Shown one piece after another: positions 42,764-49,544 of a stretch of 64,000 nt of DNA. The notes under the pieces were generated by a model. It saw only the letters and a list, made by a program, of their open reading frames with translations. It searched no databases and was not told where the DNA came from. Source of the stretch: Desulfobacter postgatei 2ac9 (GTDB lineage Bacteria; Desulfobacterota; Desulfobacteria; Desulfobacterales; Desulfobacteraceae); NCBI RefSeq assembly GCF_000233695.2, contig NZ_CM001488.1, forward strand, positions 3,645,601 through 3,709,600. Direction: 5' to 3'. Position 1 is the first letter of the stretch. Each line of letters begins with the position of its first letter. Both the position numbers and the translations under genes were made by a program.

Positions 42764-44404
42764 TTATGCTGATATTAGATTCTTTTTATTCTTTTCATCA
42801 TTTTTCTGCCCTTTATGTTCCAGCGACAGTTTATACTGAAAGCTGTCCGCCAGAGCCTGCCAGGAGGCTTCAATGATATCCTCGGAAACACCAATGGTTG
42901 AAAAGATGTGGTCTGTATCCCGTGATTCAATCAACACCCTGACCCTGGCATCTGTGCCGTCGGATCCGTCAATGACGCGAACCTTAAAATCCACCAGATG
43001 AAGATCCCTGACGCTGGGATACATGGTCGCCAATGCCTTTCTCAGGGCATTATCAAGGGCAGATACCGGACCTTCGCCTTCGGCTGAAGTGATTTCGGTT
43101 TTGTCTCCAACCCGGATTTTTATCATGGCATGGGAATAACAGGGTCGTTCCTTGTCCTTTTCCACCACCACCCTGAAGGATTCGAGTTCAAAATGGGATT
43201 GATATTGCTCGGTGAGTTTTTCCATGAGCAGTTTAAGGGTTCCTTCGGCCGCATCAAACTCATAGCCTTCGTTTTCCATCTCCTTGATGTTGTTGACAAT
43301 CAGAGATTTTTTGGATTCATCATCGCCCAGATCAACCCCAAGCTCCTTGGCCTTGTAGGCGATGTTGCTCTTGCCGGACTGCTCGGAGACCAGAACCCTG
43401 CGGCGGTTGCCCACAATTTCCGGAACCATGTGCTCATAAGCTTTGGGATTTTTCATGATGGCCGACACATGAACCCCGCCTTTATGCGTGAAAGCAGAAC
43501 GGCCCACAAATGGTCTGCTGGACACGGGCGCCATATTGGCCGTCTCCGATACAAACCTGGACAGCGCCCGTAGTTTGGCCAGGTTCTCTTGGCTGATACA
43601 CTCTCTGTTCATTTTAAGGGACAGGATAGGGATAATCGCTGTGAGATCGGCGTTGCCGCAGCGTTCCCCATATCCGTTTATCGTGCCCTGCACCATGGTC
43701 GCACCGGCATGAACCGCGTTGATGGTGTTGGCAACAGCCATGGCACAGTCATTGTGTGTATGCACGCCGAAAATGACATCATCATAATCCTTAAAATGGG
43801 CAATGGTTGCCCGGGTGATGGTGTCGATATCACAGGGGAGGCTGCCGCCGTTGGTATCGCAAAGCACCAGGCATCTGCTCCCGCCTTTCACAGCCGCTTC
43901 CAGGGTTTCTAAAGCAAAATCGGCATTGGCTTTATATCCGTCATAAAAATGTTCGGCATCATAGAGCACTTCACGGCCCTGGGCCTTGAGATAGGATACG
44001 GTTTGTGTAATCATGGCAAGGTTTTCTTCCCGGGTATTATTCATAATGTCAATTACATGCAGGTCCCAGGATTTGCCGAAAATCGTTACCACAGGCGCAC
44101 CTGAATCGATAAGCGCCTTGATGTTGCCGTCTTGTTCACAGGTTGAGTTTTGTCTTCTCGTGGATCCGAATGCACAGATCTTGGCCTGTTTGAACTGCTT
44201 ATCCCTGACCAGATCAAAAAACGCCTGGGCCCCGGGATTGGATCCTGGCCAGCCCCCTTCAATGTAGTGGATTCCGGCATCATCAAGGCGCATGGCGATC
44301 TTAAGCTTATCCTCGGGGGAGAAGAATATGTTCTCCCCCTGCATCCCGTCACGCAAGGTGGTGTCGTAAAGCAAGGCTTTTTTCTTCGCTTTTACCGTAT
44401 TCAT
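42764..44404 (-). CDS. cimA: Citramalate synthase
   Basis: 546 residues. Condenses pyruvate and acetyl-CoA to (R)-citramalate, the threonine-independent entry to isoleucine. HMGL-like TIM barrel (LLYDTTLRDGMQGEN, HTHNDCAMAVAN metal-binding His pair) and a C-terminal LeuA-type allosteric domain (about 420-520). The long form with IHYIEGGWPGSNP matches the CimA subgroup of Geobacter-like bacteria and not 2-isopropylmalate synthase. The start overlaps the ilvN stop by four bases. It is the last gene of the ilv operon, consistent with isoleucine made from pyruvate. Confidence 0.9.
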   Translation of the reverse strand: MNTVKAKKKALLYDTTLRDGMQGENIFFSPEDKLKIAMRLDDAGIHYIEGGWPGSNPGAQAFFDLVRDKQFKQAKICAFGSTRRQNSTCEQDGNIKALIDSGAPVVTIFGKSWDLHVIDIMNNTREENLAMITQTVSYLKAQGREVLYDAEHFYDGYKANADFALETLEAAVKGGSRCLVLCDTNGGSLPCDIDTITRATIAHFKDYDDVIFGVHTHNDCAMAVANTINAVHAGATMVQGTINGYGERCGNADLTAIIPILSLKMNRECISQENLAKLRALSRFVSETANMAPVSSRPFVGRSAFTHKGGVHVSAIMKNPKAYEHMVPEIVGNRRRVLVSEQSGKSNIAYKAKELGVDLGDDESKKSLIVNNIKEMENEGYEFDAAEGTLKLLMEKLTEQYQSHFELESFRVVVEKDKERPCYSHAMIKIRVGDKTEITSAEGEGPVSALDNALRKALATMYPSVRDLHLVDFKVRVIDGSDGTDARVRVLIESRDTDHIFSTIGVSEDIIEASWQALADSFQYKLSLEHKGQKNDEKNKKNLISA

Positions 44405-44892
44405 TTTCCGTTCTCCCTGCCAAGGGCTATGGTGCCGGTGGACGCAATTTCAATAATGCCCATGGGTTTCATCAGCTCAATAAACGCATGGATTTTTCCG
44501 GAATCACCCGACACTTCCACAATAAAATGTGAGACTCCCACATCAACGATCCTGGATCTGAAAATATCAACGATACGCATAATTTCGGCCCGTTTTTCAG
44601 TTTTTGCATGAACTTTGACGAGGACAAGCTCACGCTCCACGTACTTTTTTTCCGTTAAATCATTAACCGTTATGACATTGATCAGTTTATGCAGCTGCTT
44701 TTTGATCTGTTCTATGACGTGTTCGTCACAGAAGGTGGCCAGGGTGACCACTGAGACGTCCGGCTCTGCTGTTTTTGCAACGCTTAAGGAGTCAATGTTA
44801 AACCCGCGGCCGGAGAACAGGCCTGAAATCCGGGACAGAACCCCCGGTTCATTGTCCACAAGAATGGATAAAATATATCTGTTGGTTTCCAT
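44401..44892 (-). CDS. ilvN: Acetolactate synthase small subunit
   Basis: 163 residues. The regulatory subunit that confers valine feedback on IlvB. N-terminal ACT domain (SILVDNEPGVLSRISGLFSGRGFNI) and the family C-terminal domain (LVLVKVHAKTEKRAEIM, FIVEVSGDSGKIHAFIELM). Length matches the IlvH/IlvN type. It lies 14 bases after ilvB and overlaps cimA. Confidence 0.95.
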   Translation of the reverse strand: METNRYILSILVDNEPGVLSRISGLFSGRGFNIDSLSVAKTAEPDVSVVTLATFCDEHVIEQIKKQLHKLINVITVNDLTEKKYVERELVLVKVHAKTEKRAEIMRIVDIFRSRIVDVGVSHFIVEVSGDSGKIHAFIELMKPMGIIEIASTGTIALGRENGK

Positions 44893-44906: not shown

Positions 44907-46598
44907 TTAAACCAGAAGCATGTCAGTGATGGCCCCGCCTGCCGGAACCATGGGATAGACCGATTCTTCACGTTCGACAATAAAGTCCATAATTACTGTG
45001 CCGGGGGTGTTGAGCCCCGTTTCAAGGGTCTGGGTCACCTTGGCCGGATCATCACACCTGAAACCGGTTGCTCCGTATGCCTCGGCAAGCTTCACAAAAT
45101 CGGGCTGGGCTTCCATATTGGTGTCGGCATATGCTTTGTTGTAGAAAAATTCCTGCCACTGGCGCACCATGCCAAGATAGCGGTTGTTTAAAATAACGAT
45201 TTTTACATCCAGTTTTTCAGCAACAGCCGTCATCAATTCCTGGGAATTCATCTGGATTGAGCCATCCCCTGCCACACAGACAACCGTTTTATCAGGGGCC
45301 GCCGCCTTGGCACCTATGGCTGCGGGAAGGCCAAACCCCATAACACCAAGGCCGCCGGATGTTATGAAATGGTTGGGTGCTTCAAAATGATAGTACTGGG
45401 CCGTCCACATCTGGTTTTGCCCGACTTCCGTGGTAACAATGGCTTTGCCTTGGGTGACCTCATACAATTTTTCAACCACATATTGCGGCTTGATGGTGTC
45501 AAAGGATTGGTCGTACTTCAGGGGTGTTAACTCTTTCCACTCGTTGATGCGTTTAAGCCATGCAACCCGGTCGTTCATAAAATTTTCAGGTGGTTCTTTT
45601 TCCATAAGCGCGGCAATATCTGCCAGGGCCATTTTGCAGTCACCGACAATGGGGCAGTCAACGTCAACATTTTTATGGATGGATGTGGGGTCAATGTCGA
45701 TTTGGATGATTTTGGCGTCAGGTGCAAATTTTTCAAGGTTGCCGGTTACCCGGTCATCAAATCTTACACCGGCCGCAAAAATCAGGTCGCTGTGGCCGAT
45801 ACTCATATTTGCCCGGTAGGTGCCGTGCATGCCCAACATACCCAGCCAATTTTCATCAGTTCCCGGAAAGGCACCAAGTCCCATCAGGGATGATGTAACC
45901 GGGAGCTTGGCAAATTTTGCGATCCGGGTAAATTCCTTGCTTGCTCCGGATAAAATGAGACCTCCACCCCCGAACATTACCGGTCGGCGGGCCTCTTTAA
46001 TCATTTTTACAGCCGTTGCTATCTGCTTTTTATTGGGTTTGTAGTTGGGCTTGTAGTTGCGCATTTTCATAGGTTCGGGCATTTGAAAATCAATCATAGC
46101 CTGGACAATATCCTTGGGCAGATCCACGAGCACCGGCCCCGGGCGTCCGGACCTGGCAATGAAAAATGCTTCCTGAATAATTTGCGCAAGTTTGTTTGGA
46201 TCTTTAACCAGGTAGTTGTGTTTGGTGCAGGGGCGTGTGATGCCCACAATGTCCACTTCCTGGAACGCATCGTTGCCGATAAGGGCTGTCGGCACCTGAC
46301 CTGTAAAAACAACGATGGGAATCGAATCGCAGTGGGCTGATGCCAATCCCGTTACGGCATTTGTGGCACCGGGTCCTGAGGTGACCAATGCAACGCCGGT
46401 GGTTTTATGCGCCCTTGCATAGGCATCGGCCATGTGAACGGCCCCCTGTTCGTGTCTGACCACAATATGGCGCAGGTCGTTATGTTTAAGAATTTCATCA
46501 TGGATATCAATAGTGGCACCGCCGGGATACCCGAACATAGTATCAACACCCTGCGCCTTTATCATCTTAATGAGGATTTGAGCCCCTGTCAGTTTCAT
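44907..46598 (-). CDS. ilvB: Acetolactate synthase large subunit
   Basis: 563 residues. A thiamine-diphosphate enzyme that makes acetolactate or acetohydroxybutyrate. FGYPGGATIDIHDE, VRHEQGAVHMADAYAR (catalytic Glu), FTGQVP, and the ThDP motif GDGSIQMNSQELMTA...NN. Normal length. Eleven bases after ilvD. Confidence 0.96.
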   Translation of the reverse strand: MKLTGAQILIKMIKAQGVDTMFGYPGGATIDIHDEILKHNDLRHIVVRHEQGAVHMADAYARAHKTTGVALVTSGPGATNAVTGLASAHCDSIPIVVFTGQVPTALIGNDAFQEVDIVGITRPCTKHNYLVKDPNKLAQIIQEAFFIARSGRPGPVLVDLPKDIVQAMIDFQMPEPMKMRNYKPNYKPNKKQIATAVKMIKEARRPVMFGGGGLILSGASKEFTRIAKFAKLPVTSSLMGLGAFPGTDENWLGMLGMHGTYRANMSIGHSDLIFAAGVRFDDRVTGNLEKFAPDAKIIQIDIDPTSIHKNVDVDCPIVGDCKMALADIAALMEKEPPENFMNDRVAWLKRINEWKELTPLKYDQSFDTIKPQYVVEKLYEVTQGKAIVTTEVGQNQMWTAQYYHFEAPNHFITSGGLGVMGFGLPAAIGAKAAAPDKTVVCVAGDGSIQMNSQELMTAVAEKLDVKIVILNNRYLGMVRQWQEFFYNKAYADTNMEAQPDFVKLAEAYGATGFRCDDPAKVTQTLETGLNTPGTVIMDFIVEREESVYPMVPAGGAITDMLLV

Positions 46599-46609: not shown

Positions 46610-48280
46610 TTATTTAAATATGGCCCCATTGCCGGCAGATGTTACCATCTTGGCATAACGGGCCATATAACCTTTTTTGATTTTGGGTTCGGGTTTTTTC
46701 CAGCCTGCTTTTCGCCGGGTCAGTTCTTCTTCAGGTACCATTAATTCAATGGTTTTGTTTGGAATATCAATGCGAATTTGATCACCTTCATGCACAAAGG
46801 CAATCAGCCCCCCCTGGGCAGCTTCAGGAGATACATGACCGATGCTGGCGCCTTTGGTGCCACCGGAAAACCGACCGTCGGTGATCAGAGCACACCGGTC
46901 ATCAAGCCCCATGCCTGCAATGGCTGATGTGGGGGTGAGCATCTCGCGCATGCCTGGCCCCCCGGCCGGTCCCTCGTACCGGATGACGATGACATCGCCC
47001 GGATTGATCTGCCGCTCCATGATTGCGGCGCTTGCATCTTCTTCGCAATCAAATACCCTTGCAGGTCCCTGGTGGGTCATCATTTCCGGCAGAACCGCCG
47101 ACTGTTTAACCACACAGCCTTCAGGTGCAAGGTTGCCGAACAATACGGCAAGCCCACCCTCCTTATGATAAGGATCGTTGACCGGCCGAATGACATCCGG
47201 GTATTTCACCCTGATCTTTTCAAGGTTTTCTTTAATGGTTTTACCCGTGGCTGTGAGAAGACTTGTGTCGATCATGTTGTTGTCACTAAGCTCCTTCATC
47301 ACGGCCTGGATCCCGCCGGCTGCGTCAAGATCTTCAATATGGTCCTTTCCGCCGGGGCTTAAGGAGCATAAATGGGGGGTCTTTTTACTCACTTCATTAA
47401 TCAAATCCAGGGGGATATCCACACCGGCCTCGGCAGCAACGGCTTTGAGATGCAGAACCGTATTGGTGGAACAACCTAATGCCATATCCACAGCCAAGGC
47501 ATTCATAAATGCCTGTCTGGTCATGATTTTGTCCGGGGTGATATCGTGTACCACCAGATTCATGATCTGCATACCCGCAGCTTTGGCCAGACGCAGCCGG
47601 CTGGACATGGGCGCCGGAATGGTACCGTTGCCGGGCAGCCCCATACCGATGGCTTCGGTAAGGCAGTTCATGGAATTGGCCGTGAACATGCCTGCACAGG
47701 ACCCGCAGGTCGGACAGCCGGCATTTTCCATCTCCAAGAGCTCTTCTTCGGTCATTTTGCCGCTTTGAACTGCACCTACGGCCTCGAATATGGTGATCAG
47801 ATCAATTTTTTTTGACCGGTCCCGGGGGTGGCGTCCTGACAGCATGGGGCCGCCGCTGACAAAAATGGAAGGAATGTTAAGCCTTGCCGCGGCCATAAGC
47901 ATGCCCGGTACAATTTTATCGCAATTGGGCACCATGACAATACCGTCAAAGGGGTGTGCCATGGCAGTCACTTCAATGCTGTCGGCAATAAGTTCCCTTG
48001 ATGCCAATGAATAGTGCATGCCGACATGGTTCATGGCAATGCCGTCACATACGCCGATGGTGGAAAATTCCATGGGGGTACCGCCGGCCATGGAGATACC
48101 GGCCTTGACGGCTTTGACAATGGAGTCCAAGTGCATGTGGCCCGGGATCAGTTCATTGGCGGAATTGGCAATCCCGATCAGGGGGCGGTTAAGCTCAATG
48201 TCGGTGTATCCCAAGGCTTTCAGCAGGCCCCGGTGGGGTGCCCTTGCCACGCCCTGTGTTGCAATGCGGCTTCGTCTCAT
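46610..48280 (-). CDS. ilvD: Dihydroxy-acid dehydratase
   Basis: 556 residues. The iron-sulfur dehydratase common to valine and isoleucine synthesis. Cluster Cys are visible in [14 protein letters not shown] and [18 protein letters not shown], plus the EGCVVKQSA region. [20 protein letters not shown] is the C-terminal signature. First structural gene of the operon, 92 bases after the leader peptide stop and directly after the terminator hairpin. Confidence 0.96.
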
Positions 48281-48303: not shown

Positions 48304-48344
48304 AAAAAAGCCGTTACCTGCCCCCCTTCGGGGCTGGTAACGGC
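48304..48344 (-). terminator. Attenuator terminator of the ilv operon
   Basis: GCCGTTACC (48310-48318) pairs with GGTAACGGC (48336-48344), with a GC-rich inner stem (GCCCC/GGGGC). On the minus strand it is followed by six Ts (48309-48304). It lies between the leader peptide and ilvD, 24 bases before the ilvD start, so transcription must pass it. GGGGC in its inner stem (48330-48334) is complementary to GCCCC at 48379-48383 near the end of the leader gene, which gives a possible antiterminator pairing. Confidence 0.85.
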
Positions 48345-48372
48345 TTTTTTTCATTAATCTTAATTTAAGCCA

Positions 48373-48462
48373 CTAATCGCCCCTTCGCCAGGAGGTGACA
48401 ATAATCACCTCCACGATAATAATAAGGACCACTAGGCTGTTAATAATATTCATTTTTATCAT
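48373..48462 (-). CDS. ilvL: ilv operon leader peptide (attenuation control)
   Basis: 29 codons. Residues 10-22 read LVVLIIIVEVIIV: 12 of 13 are Leu, Val or Ile. In total 8 Ile, 5 Val and 2 Leu codons make up half the peptide. It ends TSWRRGD and stops at TAG 48373. It is followed by the terminator at 48304-48344 and then ilvD. As in E. coli ilvGMEDA, a ribosome stalled for lack of charged Ile, Val or Leu tRNA would favour an antiterminator and let ilvD-ilvB-ilvN-cimA be transcribed. A second in-frame ATG at 48453 is an alternative start. Confidence 0.85.
   Translation of the reverse strand: MIKMNIINSLVVLIIIVEVIIVTSWRRGD
48391..48412 (-). promoter_or_regulatory. Pause hairpin within the ilv leader gene
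   Basis: GGAGGTGA-CAATAA-TCACCTCC on the plus strand is a perfect 8-bp stem with a 6-base loop that overlaps the last Val/Ile codons of the leader peptide. It takes the place of the 1:2 pause hairpin of classical attenuators. Confidence 0.7.
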
Positions 48463-48490
48463 AATATTTTACTCTAAATTAAACATATTA

Positions 48491-48517
48491 ATTATATATA
48501 AATAATATTAATGTCAA
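48491..48517 (-). promoter_or_regulatory. Predicted promoter of the ilv operon
   Basis: On the minus strand, consensus TTGACA (48517-48512) and consensus TATAAT (48496-48491) are separated by 15 bases, shorter than the optimal 17. Transcription would start about 20 bases before the leader peptide ATG. Confidence 0.6.
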
Positions 48518-48540: not shown

Positions 48541-48782
48541 AAAAACTCACAGCAACGCCCATCATTGCTATGAGCGGAAATGCCTTTGAAAGGGACCGTC
48601 AGCCATGTAAGCGGCCGGCATGGATGATTTTATTTCAAAACCAGTTAATCCCCAGGCATTAATTGAACGTATTGAGGCATATAAGTATGGAACCGTGGCT
48701 TCAGTGGCGTTTGACCCCCCGGATTTTGACATGCCTGGTCCTGAAATGTATGACATTGAGAAACAAGAACAAGCCCTCACCG
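48541..48782 (+). pseudogene. Receiver-domain fragment of a sensor kinase or response regulator
   Basis: One frame reads TATPIIAMSGNAFERDRQ, the beta-4 segment of a receiver. After a one-base shift near 48610 the next frame reads AGMDDFISKPVNPQALIERI, with the conserved Lys-Pro (KP) of beta-5. Together they are the C-terminal third of a receiver, as at the end of hybrid kinases. The tail runs into the end of larB. Non-functional. Confidence 0.65.
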
Positions 48783-49544
48783 CTAACGTTCAACCCCTAC
48801 ATGGTTAATAGTGGAGGCCATATAACCGGCCCCAAATCCATTGTCTATATTAACCACTGCAATATTTGAACTGCAGGAATTAAGCATACCCAAAAGGGCG
48901 GTCATGCCGTTGAAGCTTGTGCCGTAGCCAATACTTGTGGGAACAGCAATTACAGGCGCTTTGACAAGGCCGCCCACCACAGAGGGCAGGGCGCCTTCCA
49001 TACCTGCGGCAACAATAATGACAGACGCTTTTTCAAGATCTTGCCGATATGCGAAAAGGCGGTGGATGCCTGCGACCCCGACATCAAAAAGTGTTTTGAC
49101 CTCATTCCCCATGGCTTTTGCCGTTAAGAAGGCTTCCATGACCACAGGAATATCTGAAGTCCCTGCACTGACGATGAGAATTGTACCCCGGCCTGTAATG
49201 GCGGGGGGCTGTTTTTCTATTTTTAACAGATGGGCGTCATCAAAATATTGTGCATTGGGAAACCGTGAAAGCACCGCATCTGCCTTATTCTGATGAATGC
49301 GGGTTACAAGCACGATATTTTCCGATTGTTCCAGTTTTTCAAGAATGGCAATAATCTGTGCCGATGTTTTGCCCTGCCCGAAAATAACCTCGGGGAATCC
49401 TTTGCGAAGAGCTCTGTGATGATCCACATGGGCGCAACCGATATCTTCAAACGAAAGGTGTTTTAATTGATCTGCGGCCTGTCCAACGGGCAGTGCGCCC
49501 TCGGCCACCATGGAAAGAATTTGTGTTAATGTATCAATGTTCAT
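48783..49544 (-). CDS. larB: Nickel-pincer cofactor biosynthesis protein LarB
   Basis: 253 residues. LarB carboxylates and hydrolyses nicotinic acid adenine dinucleotide to start the Ni-pincer nucleotide cofactor. N-terminal helical part (about 1-60) and a PurE-like C-terminal domain (about 110-250) with GTILIVSAGTSDIPVV, VIIVAAGMEGALPSVVGGL, VPTSIGYG and a C-terminal VVNIDNGFGAGYMAS. No larA, larC or larE is in the window, and relics flank it on both sides. Confidence 0.9.
   Translation of the reverse strand: MNIDTLTQILSMVAEGALPVGQAADQLKHLSFEDIGCAHVDHHRALRKGFPEVIFGQGKTSAQIIAILEKLEQSENIVLVTRIHQNKADAVLSRFPNAQYFDDAHLLKIEKQPPAITGRGTILIVSAGTSDIPVVMEAFLTAKAMGNEVKTLFDVGVAGIHRLFAYRQDLEKASVIIVAAGMEGALPSVVGGLVKAPVIAVPTSIGYGTSFNGMTALLGMLNSCSSNIAVVNIDNGFGAGYMASTINHVGVER

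Follow-up and report, generated by a model that had tools for sequence, protein, structure and literature searches.

Attenuators of enteric bacteria combine a leader open reading frame (ORF) carrying regulatory codons, alternative RNA pairings and a terminator ahead of the first gene of the operon. The operons leu, thr, ilvGMEDA and ilvBN are known enteric cases of leader-peptide attenuation according to the available part of PMC1183508. Two further systems resemble the locus described here. The uORF of Corynebacterium ilvBNC, or ilvB-II motif, is in the accessible sections of two papers a conserved uORF rich in control codons, with a terminator and an antiterminator before ilvB (PMC11109978, PMC10272879). 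Candidate ilvB leaders of Actinobacteria, as far as the available part of the source goes, have runs of Ile/Val/Leu codons that overlap a candidate terminator before ilvB; the same part reports that their mode of regulation is unclear, codon substitution in Streptomyces coelicolor having been without effect (PMC1262725). The element that we describe is itself absent from the literature searched, and the accessible parts of PMC11109978, PMC3766115, PMC2965389, PMC1262725, PMC1183508, PMC4833913, PMC545781 and PMC2864571 hold no such element for this bacterial group; the comparative papers Vitreschak 2004 and Lopatovskaya 2010 might hold delta-proteobacterial predictions.

The window, by which we mean the whole 64,000-nucleotide stretch analysed, comes from a source genome (G000) that is a single contig of 3.97 Mb. 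Following the lineage of this genome, family, order and phylum stand for sampled genomes of the Desulfobacteraceae, Desulfobacterales and Desulfobacterota. On the minus strand of the window lie ilvD (dihydroxy-acid dehydratase, 46610-48280), ilvB (acetolactate synthase large subunit, 44907-46598), ilvN (acetolactate synthase small subunit, 44401-44892) and cimA (citramalate synthase, 42764-44404), which overlaps ilvN by 4 nt. Each of the four passes the cut-off of its own NCBIfam equivalog model, which confirms the gene names given in a first-pass annotation of this DNA. That cimA is the last gene of the operon also stands, and among the 46 family loci with 5 kb or more of sequence beyond the ilvD start, 45, all except L119, have the gene downstream. 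Since nothing in the source genome scores above the cut-off of two NCBIfam models for ilvA (threonine deaminase), it may obtain 2-oxobutyrate mainly by way of citramalate. Upstream of the leader, on the same strand, lies larB (48783-49544). The gap between larB and the leader promoter contains a plus-strand stretch (48545-48805) that we take to resemble, in two frames, a response-regulator receiver domain of which a degraded end is left; a 65-codon part of it matches no Pfam family.

All parts of an attenuator are present at 48517-48304 on the minus strand: a predicted promoter, a leader ORF, a long 1:2 arm, an antiterminator and a terminator with its T run. The consensus boxes seen in the first-pass annotation are TTGACA (-35, 48517-48512) and an exact TATAAT (-10, 48496-48491). 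Their spacer is 15 nt, and the promoter is missing from our promoter-scan list because the scan took spacers of 16-18 nt. A weak Shine-Dalgarno-like AGAG (48475-48472) could serve the leader ORF. This ORF, supported by sequence and conservation, runs from the ATG at 48462 to the TAG at 48375-48373 and encodes the 29-codon peptide MIKMNIINSLVVLIIIVEVIIVTSWRRGD, in which 11 of 12 consecutive codons specify Ile, Leu or Val. Among 1,207 ORFs of 10-60 codons on both strands of the window, it alone exceeds eight such codons per 12, so the Ile/Val-rich frame noted earlier is unique in the window. It also contains the rare Leu codon CUA, which makes up 3.7% of the Leu codons in nine window genes.

Folding and alignment define the strands that follow. 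Region 1 (48438-48424, AGCCUAGUGGUCCUU) holds Leu/Val codons and is the partner of region 2 (48385-48367, AAGGGGCGAUUAGUGGCUU). The latter holds the leader stop codon and pairs either with region 1 or with region 3 (48346-48330), the 5' arm of the terminator. Region 3 in turn has region 2 (antiterminator) or region 4 as its partner; region 4, read from sequence and folding, comprises the 3' arm (48324-48308) and the T run (48309-48304). The T run ends 23 nt ahead of ilvD, which starts at 48280 and has a Shine-Dalgarno-like AGGAGA at 48297-48292. Within the 1:2 arm sits an inner hairpin, GGAGGUGAUUAUUGUCACCUCC, at 48412-48391, which overlaps the last Ile/Val codons of the leader ORF just as the first-pass annotation had it. 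In this hairpin a Shine-Dalgarno-like GGAGGUGA is paired with an anti-Shine-Dalgarno-like complement, and most of the family keeps both. We considered a Shine-Dalgarno role for the hairpin and rejected it: one clade keeps the hairpin yet has no such complement, and both arms are altered in L112.

The leader RNA folds better than its dinucleotide shuffles (z -6.81, with 0 of 200 shuffles as good). Its best fold comprises the 1:2 arm (48438-48424 with 48385-48367) around the hairpin at 48412-48391, and the 3:4 terminator. The arm and inner hairpin, computed alone, reach -32.7 kcal/mol. The terminator predicted from folding counts 20 pairs plus the T run at -34.5 kcal/mol, in agreement with the earlier call of a strong terminator right before ilvD. 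A GGGGC/GCCCC complementarity had been offered as the antiterminator; the pairing is real, but it is just one block of a stronger antiterminator of 14 pairs, in which GGGGC and UAGUGGCUU pair with AAGCCGUUA and GCCCC on either side of a 3x3 loop (-16.8 kcal/mol alone). Both alternatives that had been proposed for comparison, 1:2/3:4 and 2:3, can thus be folded, but at equilibrium the terminator is the most stable structure in every stall state tested. Because the terminator is always favoured at equilibrium, switching must rest on co-transcriptional timing or kinetic ordering. In the classical attenuation model, it is the order of synthesis that decides. When the position of a stalled ribosome is scanned along the leader, the 2:3 helix has access to its full 14 pairs for A-site positions up to codon 23 and to none of them from codon 28 onwards. 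Moreover, in an RNA cut at region 3 with region 1 left free, 2:3 is still preferred over 1:2.

We consider it very probable, on the sequence comparisons reported here, that a ribosome-mediated transcription attenuator controls ilvD-ilvB-ilvN-cimA. The parts of this attenuator, their order, their conservation and their placing before branched-chain genes can be read directly from the sequences; from these we infer leader translation, the dynamics of the switch and its response to amino acids. RNA polymerase would start near 48485, as judged from the -10 box, with a ribosome trailing it into the leader ORF. Were charged Leu, Val or Ile tRNA scarce, the ribosome would stall in codons 10-22 and mask region 1, the inner hairpin or both, freeing region 2 for pairing with region 3 while region 4 is still to be transcribed. 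At codons 19-22 the stalled ribosome would leave region 1 free upstream. With 2:3 formed there would be no terminator, and the operon including cimA would be transcribed. Were charged tRNAs plentiful, the ribosome would reach the UAG in region 2 and block this region, and 3:4 would then terminate transcription before ilvD. In the event that the leader is not translated, 1:2 may form first, which would also lead to termination.

An ilvD match is found in 74 of the 86 family genomes, and we read the regions upstream of 64 orthologous ilvD loci (at least 71% identical). The leader is present in 63 of them, 62 in full and one (L139) with its core truncated at the contig end; the 64th locus, L029, has just 66 nt of upstream sequence. 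L029 and L139 were left out of the family codon-share counts. The consensus of the family leader peptides is LLVLIIVEVII-x-TS-x-RRG. In the alignment of the 63 leaders, cells of the 1:2 arm, hairpin and terminator are paired in 92.4% of cases, compared to 41-55% in slid controls, and for the terminator alone the value is 96.6%. The covariation score of these helices is 0.112 against 0.035-0.073 in slid controls and 0.094 in shuffles, none of 500 of which score as high. Ten pairs are altered on both sides, compared to a shuffle mean of 4.8, and one slid control reaches 13. The 2:3 antiterminator is paired in 93.1% of cells, compared to 23-61% in slid controls. Its covariation is no higher than that of the controls (score 0.025, with 68 of 500 shuffles as high and 0.042 for the control slid by +3), because region 3 scarcely varies; a compensatory test at a single position of regions 2 and 3, which is without power, gives p 0.20.

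Four divergent ilvD genes of the family (58-59% identical; L145-L148), which we left out of the family leader counts and alignments, have no such leader and show 5-7 Ile/Leu/Val codons per 12. In two of the genomes with a divergent ilvD (G036, G042), as in G041 and G051, the leader lies between larB and ilvB. A covariance model (R1), built from family leaders with no use of the downstream genes, matches a third divergent-ilvD genome, G032, and finds nothing in the fourth, G053.

Of 62 family leaders, 52 have a TTGAC box upstream at a constant distance (expectation per stretch, about 0.15), as do 88 of 103 other leaders; the ten family leaders lacking it belong mostly to one clade. The conservation of this box upstream of the leader speaks against transcription beginning downstream of the terminator. 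The hairpin could instead be a mere terminator of larB transcripts, or a bidirectional one, in which case the short ORF would be incidental and amino acids would exert no control. Such a role would suit both the position of larB, upstream on the same strand, and the near symmetry of the terminator, but it explains neither the TTGAC box conserved between larB and the leader, nor the conserved leader codons, nor the conserved antiterminator pairing, and we hold it to be most improbable.

The conservation of the leader frame and of its Ile/Val codons, which had been put forward as a check, holds at the 63 of 64 family loci and beyond the family. Model R1 matches 73 of 86 family genomes (none in 13), 244 of 291 sampled order genomes (none in 47) and 172 of 192 in the class sample (every genome within the order). 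We count genomes rather than matches, because many matches are antisense hits that arise at the same place from the nearly symmetric terminator. From the order and class lists 60 order matches were fetched by score, the last 20 also so as to include genomes with two matches, and the downstream gene was unknown at the time of choice. All 60 directly precede ilvD (42), ilvB (17) or cimA (1), a placing that a terminator serving larB alone leaves unexplained, and all 60 have a short ORF with at least 8 Ile/Leu/Val codons in 12. Three genomes (G103, G130, G164) carry two leader copies each, ahead of separate genes.

In the phylum sample, R1 matches 32 of 247 genomes, nine of them within the order. 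All eight matches outside the order with E < 0.001 that were examined (G530:C5 was left out) precede cimA (6) or a leuA-like gene (2), while among 13 weaker outside matches one lies before cimA and 12 lie before none of the genes tested. A second model (R2), built from nine leaders outside the order, matches 42 of 395 phylum genomes and recovers the window leader at E 7.6e-4. A branched-chain gene is the best downstream match at 45 of 47 R2 loci, a count that includes the nine training loci and one place twice. Five of the 45 (L371, L374, L376, L377, L379) have a best short ORF with just 6-7 Ile/Leu/Val codons in 12. The exception among the R2 loci is one place (L346/L363) with an acyl-CoA dehydrogenase gene downstream. 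There, a related leader with an Ile-rich ORF (L346:1501-1660, plus strand) stands ahead of a gene (1681-2823) that is not biosynthetic.

The alternative pairings were also compared with shuffles and with arms swapped between leaders; eight of 166 leaders, in which the script did not locate the terminator, were omitted from the 2:3 tests. When region 2 was shuffled 20 times, the average shuffle paired with region 3 less well than the real sequence did in 157 of 158 leaders. For region 1 against region 2, the real stretch surpasses its shuffle average in 152 of 157 leaders, and in 105 of 157 no more than two of 50 shuffles are as good. Foreign arms equal or surpass the pairing of a leader's own region 2 in 27% of swaps within the family and 32% among leuA leaders. 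In the order and outside groups the own region 2 is not superior, foreign arms doing as well or better in 65-66% of swaps, partly because the family arms are longer.

The source genome has a second copy of the attenuator (L202:5218-5379:-, that is G000:C1:360217-360378), whose leader, MINFTSRLLVLLLIEEVVLNTSGRRGS, has Leu codons replacing Ile/Val. It sits 27 nt ahead of a 2-isopropylmalate synthase-like gene, here called leuA, the best NCBIfam matches of which fall below cut-off. In all ten genomes in which both can be compared, the leuA leader has 6-11 Leu codons (6-10 counted from the ATG), whereas the ilvD leader has two. Overall the shares are 0.57 Leu and 0.22 Ile in leuA copies, compared to 0.27-0.33 Leu and 0.42-0.47 Ile in ilvD/ilvB leaders. 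A Leu-coded copy before leuA is a further fact that the terminator of larB transcripts does not account for. The re-coding to Leu probably happened once, within a single clade, with L205 as an additional case from another family. At L205 (6495-6653, minus strand; G350) the leader accompanies a leuA that is 80% identical to that of the source genome, possibly as a result of horizontal transfer. The ten genomes with a leuA leader have no leuA-like gene after cimA within the stretch read; five others of the same genus (G016, G018, G019, G020, G023) do have one, about 30% identical to the source-genome leuA, and G000 holds no close copy of it.

Outside the order, the leaders of two sister leuA-like genes are Val-rich, not Leu-rich, which speaks against a simple codon rule. 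Among 24 cimA leaders, the mean shares of Ile/Leu/Val codons are 0.56 Ile, 0.30 Leu and 0.14 Val; Ile makes up at least 70% in nine, and Leu exceeds Ile in ten. This set omits L377 (6 of 12, no leader recognised), L345, whose peptide is identical to that of L342, and loci that duplicate places in the count. In the first eight cimA leaders the Ile share was not raised (p 0.90) and Val was lower (p 0.02); the Ile-rich ones were mostly recovered by model R2. Mostly-Ile leaders stand ahead of cimA at L247, L352, L353 and L371-L376, in other families of the phylum.

The strands CCGUUAUCAG...CUGAUAACGG and UGAUAAUG, shared by leaders across the phylum, suggest common descent, and convergence under the triple pairing constraint may be an alternative origin. 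A broader claim, which we see as evenly balanced between true and false, is that one ancestral attenuator RNA became a phylum-wide movable cassette. In such a cassette strands 2, 3 and 4 would be almost frozen and the codons threaded through them exchanged, giving mixed Ile/Val/Leu sets before ilvD/ilvB, Leu before the relocated leuA and almost only Ile ahead of certain cimA genes. If codons were exchanged on frozen strands, repeated changes of amino-acid specificity would have needed nothing but codon substitution.

That the RNA is conserved beyond what codon counting needs would also fit a riboswitch or a protein-bound leader, for example one that senses branched-chain amino acids or ppGpp directly, with the short ORF secondary. 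Against this, neither a T-box nor any other leader family of Rfam 15 matches at gathering score in the window and 15 related loci, and permissive E-values give below-threshold matches only (e.g. Thr_leader at 21.9 bits versus 55). Moreover, conservation is highest in strands 2, 3 and 4, which build the mutually exclusive helices, and the leuA copies change their codons while keeping the helices. We therefore judge a riboswitch or protein-bound leader very improbable and retain ribosome-mediated attenuation.

The element is predicted to control the entire branched-chain pathway in a group of anaerobes, and this can be tested. It is present in 244 of 291 sampled order genomes, yet has no above-threshold Rfam 15 match in any locus scanned. 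Through it, isoleucine synthesis by way of citramalate would come under ribosome-mediated attenuation, a form of control that the literature searched does not describe for this route, and its leuA and cimA copies amount to natural codon-swap experiments on attenuator specificity.

With the enteric ilv and leu attenuators, the Desulfobacter element shares the leader ORF with regulatory codons, the alternative pairings and the terminator before the first gene. Its rare CUA codon has a counterpart in the rare Leu codon of the enteric leu leader, known to us from a title cited in the available part of PMC1183508. Unlike the enteric leaders, it matches no Rfam leader family at threshold, heads an ilvDBN(C)-cimA operon that in many relatives continues with a leuA-like gene, and has copies before leuA and cimA elsewhere. 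The ilvB-II motif differs in that, in the accessible sections of the sources, all 103 of 103 representatives lie in Corynebacterium before ilvB, and in that two stems are described, with the antiterminator carried by P1 (PMC11109978, PMC10272879). Compared to the ilvB leaders of Actinobacteria, the Desulfobacter-type element has a conserved antiterminator pairing. Thus, the predicted mechanism would be textbook attenuation of the ilv/leu/trp type, and what appears to be new is a family of leaders that ranges unusually widely and is in part re-coded.
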